DNA of 64,000 nt, taken from Natronorubrum sediminis (lineage in GTDB: Archaea; Halobacteriota; Halobacteria; Halobacteriales; Natrialbaceae). Positions 21,842 to 23,580 of this stretch are shown here, one piece after another (within the stretch, counting starts at the first letter, position 1; every line of letters starts with the position of its first letter). Under the pieces are notes generated by a model. The model worked only from the letters and a program-made list of their open reading frames with translations, searched no databases and had not been told where the DNA came from. The translations under genes were made by a program, and so were the position numbers. Location: positions 868,001 through 932,000 of the forward strand of contig NZ_FNWL01000001.1 of assembly GCF_900108095.1 (NCBI RefSeq), in the 5' to 3' direction.

Positions 21842-22726
21842 ATGGACGAGACAGACCTGAATACGGACAAGACCGAGGCAACCACGGACGAGACCGAGCC
21901 AACCACAGACGAAACCGAGGCAACGATGGACGACACTGAGACGCCGTCGACTGAGCCGGTGGAACCGAGCGACAAAGAATCGATTCGCGAACGCGTCTGG
22001 GACGACCTCGAGGAGAGCGGAACGGCCAGATTCCCATTTCCGCCCCACGGTCGGATTCCGAACTTCGACGGTGCGGACGAGGCAGCGGAGCGACTCGCCG
22101 AGCAGCAGGCGTGGCGAGACGCATCGACGATCAAAGCCAACCCCGACGCACCACAGCTCCCGGTTCGACGCCGCGCGCTGAAAGCCGGGAAGACGGTCTA
22201 CATGGCCGTTCCACGACTCGCCGACGAGCGGTGTTTCCTGAAACTGGACCCAGACGAACTCGAGGACTACGATGCGGCGACGACGGTTTCGGGGTCGTCG
22301 GAACACGGCGAACAAGTCGGTCCCGAAGCGGTCCCAGAAATTGACCTGATCGTTTCCGGCAGCGTGGCAGTGAGTGTGGATCGCAACGCGGCGGAGACGG
22401 CAAGCAGCGCTAGCCACGAGTCCGTCGAGGGCGGTCGAATCGGCAAAGGCGAGGGCTACAGCGACCTCGAGTTCGCGCTGTTGGCCGAATTTGACCTCGT
22501 CGACGAGACGACCACGGTTGCGACGACGGTACACGAACGACAGCTAGTCGACGACGCGGTTTCGCTCGGTGATCACGACGTCTCGATGGACCTGATCGTC
22601 ACACCCGAGCGAACGATTCGACCGGACGGTGCCGAGCAGCCGTCTGGAATCGACTGGGATCTCCTCTCGGCGCAGCGACTCGAGGAGATTCCGGTATTGG
22701 AGCGACTCAGCGACGCAGGCGACTAG
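21842..22726 (+). CDS. 5-formyltetrahydrofolate cyclo-ligase (MTHFS) family protein
   Basis: 294 residues from ATG 21842; the start is uncertain because residues ~3-35 are a low-complexity TDETEPTTDETEA repeat and a later ATG (21926) is possible. From ~45: IRERVWDDLEESGTARFPFPPHGRIPNFDGADEAAERL...W, KANPDAPQLPVRRRALKAGKTVYMAVPRL, and the diagnostic GRIGKGEGYSDLEFALLAEF near residue 205, then HDVSMDLIVTPERTI. The family converts 5-formyl-THF to 5,10-methenyl-THF using ATP; haloarchaeal members may use folate or a pterin relative. Co-oriented with the MoaB-like gene. Confidence 0.83.
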   Translation: MDETDLNTDKTEATTDETEPTTDETEATMDDTETPSTEPVEPSDKESIRERVWDDLEESGTARFPFPPHGRIPNFDGADEAAERLAEQQAWRDASTIKANPDAPQLPVRRRALKAGKTVYMAVPRLADERCFLKLDPDELEDYDAATTVSGSSEHGEQVGPEAVPEIDLIVSGSVAVSVDRNAAETASSASHESVEGGRIGKGEGYSDLEFALLAEFDLVDETTTVATTVHERQLVDDAVSLGDHDVSMDLIVTPERTIRPDGAEQPSGIDWDLLSAQRLEEIPVLERLSDAGD

Positions 22727-23250
22727 TCGACGGCGCAGTCGATGCGTCTCGCGAAAGTGGCGATCGATTAGCTAGTAGAAGCAGTCGCTTTTGATGTGGC
22801 TATTCAGAACGGAGACGAGCCACTGACGAGTGCAGTGTCGATGTGCGTAGAAACCCAGCAAAGAAGCGCGTCGGGTTGACGCGCCTCGAAATTGCCTACC
22901 GTAGCCGACACGGACTGGTGCAAGAGCCCGTGTCAGTTAGAAAACGGTGTGGCAATGGTGGGGAAGGGTGCTGTGGTGGGGTTGCTGGAAGTCACGGGAA
23001 TAGGCATAATGCCTTGGTGGGGTCTGCCCGTCGACCTCCATCTCATCCAATCAGCGGCGTGCACTTCAACCGGGGCGATGGTAGCAGTGTCTTACACCGG
23101 ATTCCACCGAATTTAGCCCAGTTTTATTCGGCTAAATCTCCGCTCGAGATCGATTACAGTTCAGGGATTGTGATTGTTTTCCGTTTCACTGTCCGTCGTG
23201 TGTGCGACATGTGTCCGTACCGCTCGTGAAAAAGAGCGACAGCGCCGACG
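22727..23250. other. 524-bp gap with hairpins; candidate ncRNA or decayed sequence
   Basis: No frame here has convincing coding character. Two perfect hairpins occur close together: GCGCGTC/GACGCGC (22866-22884, 5-base loop) and GACACGG/CCGTGTC (22907-22934, 14-base loop). A third small one, AGGCA/TGCCT, lies near 23004-23016. The G-rich stretch 22943-22995 (GGTGTGGCAATGGTGGGG...) can in part pair with CTTACACCGGATTCCACC near 23092-23110. Composition is lower in G+C than the genes around. I looked for SRP RNA (GGAAGG helix-8 loop) and RNase P RNA signatures and did not find them. Confidence 0.45.
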
Positions 23251-23580
23251 TTAGTCGGTCAGTTCCTCGGCGACGAGCGAGGCGTCCATCAGCTTCGGAT
23301 CGATCGCGATGTCCAGTTGCCCCTTGACGAACTCCGGAACGGTTCTGCGAGCGTAGACGACCGTCCGAACGTCGTCCGTGAGATCACAGACGATTGGAAT
23401 CGTCGTCGCCTGCCCGATATCCGTCAGTACGTACAGATCGGCCTCGACGATGCCAGCTTCTTCGAGAACGGGCCGGGTTACCACGCCGTTGAGGCGGGTG
23501 ACGGTGGCTCCTTCGGCCTCGAGTGCGGGCGTGATCTCGTCTTCGTCAGGACCGACGACGACCGCGTTCAGTTCCGTCAT
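23251..23580 (-). CDS. conserved haloarchaeal protein with NAD-binding-like fold, downstream of guaAb
   Basis: 109 residues. The pattern [67 protein letters not shown] resembles the first half of a Rossmann/TrkA-N domain (beta-alpha-beta, then [17 protein letters not shown]). Homologues in haloarchaeal genomes are often labelled CTP synthetase, which reflects the neighbour pyrG and not this sequence: it has none of the synthase motifs. Its start overlaps the guaAb stop by four bases, so it is translated with pyrG-guaAb. A role sensing or regulating nucleotide synthesis is inference. Confidence 0.78.

Follow-up and report, generated by a model that had tools for sequence, protein, structure and literature searches.

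To our knowledge, haloarchaea have few RNA families that are defined by covariation, and most of their known small RNAs were identified by RNA-seq of just one or two species. Two kinds of bacterial RNAs are relevant for comparison, namely the C-rich sRNAs of Firmicutes (RoxS/RsaE type), in which unpaired C-rich segments can pair with G-rich initiation regions, and the protein-titrating RNAs CsrB/RsmZ, in which CsrA binds to numerous GGA motifs located in loops. Archaeal RNase P RNA and SRP (7S) RNA resemble the RNA described here in being structured and of comparable size, but are encoded at separate loci in the same genome. Other RNAs that are likewise haloarchaeal and intergenic, lack a long ORF and fall in a similar size range are sRNA132 and s479 from Haloferax volcanii and the itsRNAs of halite communities (PMC7002113). 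The passages of the latter source that were consulted mention itsRNAs conserved across Halobacteria, without a function, and none of the three Natrialbaceae genus names that were searched for. Given that covariance searches match no genome from other families of the order, the present RNA is not homologous to the known Haloferax or Halobacterium RNAs, within the reach of these searches; it is not named in the titles and abstract openings of the open literature searched, and an RNA-seq report of its transcript may exist elsewhere.

The locus is a 524-nt gap (22727-23250) in a 64,000-nt stretch of Natronorubrum sediminis DNA (hereafter the window). The gap is flanked by two stop codons, that of the MTHFS-like gene on the plus strand (ending at 22726) and that of the DUF7126 gene on the minus strand, i.e., the two genes are convergent (see the table). 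An earlier, sequence-only reading had described the gap as a gene-free region of lowered G+C content with clustered hairpins, and these elements are indeed found: the G+C content is 0.53-0.59 compared with about 0.60-0.67 on both sides, and there are two perfect 7-bp hairpins (GCGCGTC, 22866-22872, with GACGCGC, 22878-22884, and GACACGG, 22907-22913, with CCGTGTC, 22928-22934) as well as an AGGCA/TGCCT hairpin. An additional perfect hairpin, of 8 bp (ATTTAGCC/GGCTAAAT, 23111-23118 with 23130-23137), was absent from that reading and is located within the promoter-like region. Compared with shuffled sequences, the fold of the 524-nt gap has a z of -2.68 on the plus strand and -4.79 on the minus strand. 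No tRNA or tmRNA was detected in the window. The MTHFS-like protein contains an acidic, repetitive N-terminal extension (window 21842-21990, TTDETE repeats) ahead of the conserved domain.

Features of the locus, with coordinates in the window
Feature	Coordinates	Strand	Evidence or remark
DUF7126 gene	23251..23580	-	PF23443, E 1.8e-44; upstream neighbour of the RNA
MTHFS-like (5-formyltetrahydrofolate cyclo-ligase family) gene	21842..22726	+	PF01812, E 1e-21; convergent neighbour
Predicted structured ncRNA gene	22860..23098	-	Covariance-model homologues, fold z, pair counts
TATA-like box 1	23122..23126	-	T, A, A invariant in 85/85 homologues (A4)
TATA-like box 2	23111..23116	-	One A invariant in 85/85 homologues (A4)
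Helix P1, 5' arm (UGGAGGUCGACGGG)	23027..23040	-	98.0% of cells paired; 1 pair with double change
Helix P1, 3' arm (CCCGUGACUUCCA)	22986..22998	-	Pair counts and G.U:A.C counts
Hairpin P2 (AGGCA/UGCCU in the window), within P1	23002..23014	-	64.8% of cells paired over homologues
C-rich, largely unpaired segment, CACC repeated	22945..22985	-	Near-invariant in alignment A4; CACC counts
Tentative helix P3 (22945-22954 with 22893-22901), encloses H2	22893..22954	-	87.7% of outer and 67.9% of inner cells paired; present in window fold
Hairpin H2, GCACC in loop	22907..22934	-	Double compensatory changes in 9/9 pairs
Terminal hairpin H1	22861..22889	-	Double compensatory changes in 9/10 pairs

Comparison of homologous loci leaves very little doubt that a conserved, structured RNA is encoded in this region; its length of about 240 nt follows from predicted ends (the 5' end at 23087-23098 and the 3' end just past H1). 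The proposal of a structured RNA made in the sequence-only reading, which had set covariation, conservation in relatives and a transcript as tests in advance, is backed by the first two, position and sequence being conserved family-wide. The main alignment, A4, comprises the 85 distinct loci among 121 that bear the motif (identical 120-nt cores were collapsed, and L108, which lacks the motif, was dropped). Over these 85 homologues, the whole structure includes 165 double-compensated cells compared with 60.7 ± 10.7 in shuffles, which ignore relatedness, and with 48-78 double-change cells when the structure is slid along the alignment. Helices H1 and H2 covary, whereas P1 is near-invariant. A covariation scan without a prior structure is dominated by shared ancestry; the top pairs that coincided with real helices belonged to H1 and H2, and the scan was therefore not used to add helices. 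On its own, the 241-nt window RNA, read from the minus strand, has a fold z of -5.22 and forms P1, P2, P3, H2 and H1, with the minimum-energy structure identical to the centroid structure; the end of the C-rich segment doubles as the 5' arm of P3. In the alignment of the first loci (A1 and A2, which include 28 of the first 30, L028 and L030 being omitted for long insertions), long invariant runs are broken by one-base indels. Alignment A5 (33 of the 85 homologues) and the set used for statistics on folding and motifs (31 of the 85) were each hand-picked to span genera. The comparison of homologues does not support pairing of G-rich with C-rich segments over about 150 bases, as the sequence-only reading had suggested: the G-rich stretches of the plus strand correspond to the unpaired C-rich stretches of the minus-strand RNA, and the true longer helix is P1.

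The RNA, the strand of which the sequence-only reading had left open, can be assigned to the minus strand with high confidence. A wobble pair in an RNA encoded on the minus strand appears as a G.U cell, whereas in an RNA encoded on the plus strand it would appear as an A.C cell; P1, H1 and H2 together contain 276 G.U and 50 A.C cells, which favours the minus strand. P2 and P3, the least well aligned helices, point the opposite way (68 G.U vs 107 A.C cells), so that the case for the minus strand depends on P1, H1 and H2. The mean fold z of the 31 representatives is -2.65 on the minus strand and -0.82 on the plus strand. RNAalifold also yields a plus-strand alternative with long-range pairing rich in G.U. 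A plus-strand RNA was considered as the main reading and rejected because the changes in these long-range helices are almost wholly one-sided, C/T opposite an invariant G-rich strand, the asymmetry in H1, H2 and P1 is the opposite one, and the single-sequence z favours the minus strand. The same observations bear on the idea that the conserved unit is a DNA element, e.g., a protein-binding or replication site, and not an RNA. A chromosomal location, presence in one copy in the window's genome and strong sequence conservation would all be compatible with such a site, but neither the predominance of G.U cells over A.C cells in H1, H2 and P1 nor the strand-specific folding stability is expected for DNA, which makes this interpretation very improbable.

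The claim that the gap contains no gene holds for proteins: no frame of either strand is protein-like (the best z is 1.41, with stops in 14 of 67 rows), whereas DUF7126, used as the positive control, has a z of 7.82 and stops in 0 of 79 rows (the test used 67 and 60 of the 85 rows, gapped rows being left out, and 79 rows for the control). A small protein encoded on the plus strand, by an ORF of 128 or 74 aa, was a promising candidate given an HLNGGDG-like pattern in close relatives that is open in many of 28 relatives, but it failed this frame test, has no Pfam match, and its conserved G-rich part falls in different frames across species; a coding function is thus scarcely credible. The conserved G run varies by single bases, so that the same conserved DNA lies in different frames in different species.

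The RNA is conserved in the family Natrialbaceae. The covariance model R1, built for the core, matches 115 of 125 Natrialbaceae genomes and, in an order-wide set, 64 of 70 genomes of the family and none of the 223 genomes of other families. A second model, R2, which was built with divergent members, matches 19 of the 392 genomes in a phylum-wide set, all of them Natrialbaceae, with none outside the family; the E-values of both models are rough. R2 improves the match in G019, one of the most divergent genomes (from E 2.5e-7 to E 1.1e-13), and gains no genome outside the family. One genome, G035, matches R1 only (E 6e-4) and not R2, so that the family count of 115 may be 114. The 10 family genomes without a match come from three genera (6, 2 and 2 genomes, the last two incomplete). 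A blastn search with the gap in the first set of 61 genomes found matches in 33 of 37 family genomes; the single match outside the family (28 nt, in G058) lies outside the core and was taken as chance, as were two weak R2 matches at other places (E 0.16 and 0.38) in a search of 23 genomes with E up to 1. Among 84,980 genomes, an exact pattern is found at 42 loci, all in Natrialbaceae records or Natrialbaceae MAGs, of genera that include Natronorubrum, Natrinema, Natrialba, Natronococcus, Halopiger and Halovivax; five loci from the genus of the window (L003, L005, L007, L008 and L009) have cores identical to those of Natronorubrum records. At the site adjacent to guaAb/DUF7126 in 21 match-free genomes, the C-rich motif is found only at 3 edits or worse and GACTTCCAGCA is absent. 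In the window's genome the RNA is single-copy. The strong constraint and single copy, together with the lack of a plasmid match and of an exact-pattern match in virus contigs, speak against the decayed insertion that had been put forward as the other explanation of the gap. Two genera seemingly lack the RNA, namely g9 (G281, G017, G310, G273, G270, G311) and g6 (G014, G309), and DUF7126 is likewise missing beside guaAb in G310, G273, G270 and G017, four of the six genomes of g9. In one locus (L112 in G106, with the same core as L064 from Natrinema pallidum DSM 3751), the 5' domain of the RNA is partly duplicated in tandem (about 78 nt), with the extra copy immediately preceding the full one (962-1040 and 715-899 on the minus strand).

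A search of Rfam 15 at the gathering threshold gives no match in the window or in 20 homologous loci, and at a low threshold the region is hit by a single chance miRNA model (E 5). Signatures of RNase P and SRP RNA, which the sequence-only reading had sought by eye to no avail, are indeed absent from the locus, which neither model matches; both RNAs are found elsewhere in the same genome (RF00373, C1:1235922-1236372, 116 bits, and RF01857, C1:404156-404467, 180.8 bits, respectively, where the window begins at C1:868001). The absence of Rfam matches also bears, indirectly, on guide RNAs with C/D boxes or with the pocket and ACA of H/ACA hairpins; by eye, P1 looks continuous and has no guide pocket. 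Thus, by these comparisons the supposedly empty gap appears to contain a non-coding gene of an uncatalogued RNA family.

The genomic context of the RNA is well conserved. Among the 85 distinct loci, 79 have DUF7126 with the RNA directly downstream and co-directional, and in 72 the RNA both follows a co-oriented DUF7126 gene and is followed by an oppositely oriented MTHFS-like gene; in the available DNA, 6 loci lack DUF7126 and 7 lack the MTHFS-like gene, in some cases merely for a short flank. In the first 30 loci, DUF7126 adjoins the match in 29 and the MTHFS-like gene in 28. This arrangement, along with the covarying GC-rich hairpin at the end of the RNA, would fit a cis element, that is, a structured 3' UTR with a terminator (or a processing/stability element) of the pyrG-guaAb-DUF7126 transcript, which perhaps also insulates it from the convergent MTHFS-like gene. 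However, the RNA is intact where an unrelated ORF lies upstream (L015/L073) and where DUF7126 and guaAb are missing from 1.4 kb (L036), the constraint on the unpaired C-rich sequence exceeds the needs of a terminator, and the TATA-like boxes are located between the RNA and DUF7126, so that a cis element appears unlikely. These boxes are candidate promoter elements, and the RNA probably forms its own transcription unit, which would be transcribed as a discrete molecule of about 240 nt.

The best explanation overall, which we favour with some reserve, is a Natrialbaceae ncRNA gene on the minus strand that most likely has its own promoter and acts in trans; the apparent viability of g6 and g9 without the RNA is a point against it. 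An action in trans is suggested by sequence features. The most constrained part of the RNA is unpaired and C-rich. Each RNA contains 4-10 copies of the tetranucleotide CACC (7.5 on average compared with 4.0 in dinucleotide-shuffled sequences; mean z 2.3, a moderate excess), and GCACC is present in all 31 representatives, partly in hairpin loops. Under a possible mechanism, the ncRNA, whose minus-strand gene separates the pyrG-guaAb-DUF7126 genes from the convergent MTHFS-like gene, would expose through its rigid helices unpaired C-rich segments containing CACC, and these might bind G-rich (GGUG-type) sites, e.g., near the points where translation of target mRNAs begins. The RNA would then behave as a C-rich regulatory sRNA. 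Base pairing through the CACC segments is only tentatively proposed. The parallel with the RoxS/RsaE type is limited to the mode of action, with unpaired C-rich segments and possible pairing to G-rich sites in common and no homology: unlike these sRNAs, the Natrialbaceae RNA belongs to archaea, is a fixed part of the chromosome within a single family and is far more structured. The most conserved 14-mer was used to search for antisense targets, and in 8 of 8 genomes its complement had fewer near-matches than the reversed control. Given this lack of extended complementarity to the 14-mer, RNA targets, if any, would be short seeds, the alternative being a protein partner. Separately, GGGTGGTGTAGTGG, which presumably resembles the 5' part of a tRNA gene, occurs as paired nearby copies in several genomes (G030:C1:1440424 and 1440706; G016:C11:113688 and 113992; G034:C1:2195366 and 2195972; G021:C1:1638598 and 1641505).

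The same repeats, and the failure to find extended complementary targets in the 8 genomes, could also be accounted for by a protein-titrating RNA, in which the repeated CACC segments would hold an RNA-binding protein in the manner of CsrB/RsmZ, although the merely moderate excess of CACC and the lack of a known protein partner render this version rather doubtful. Again, the likeness is one of mode of action, a short motif repeated in loops, but the motif is CACC, not GGA, and GGAG occurs just 1.3 times per RNA. Should this uncatalogued RNA class, confined to one archaeal family, prove to form a stable RNP or a protein-titrating hub via the repeated CACC, which we regard as a long shot, it would represent a type of global post-transcriptional regulator as yet undescribed in archaea. 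The RNA could become a new Rfam entry, which would give some hundred genomes an annotated gene in place of an 'empty' gap, and it occurs in cultivable strains, so that its transcript, its targets and the phenotype of a knockout are directly testable.
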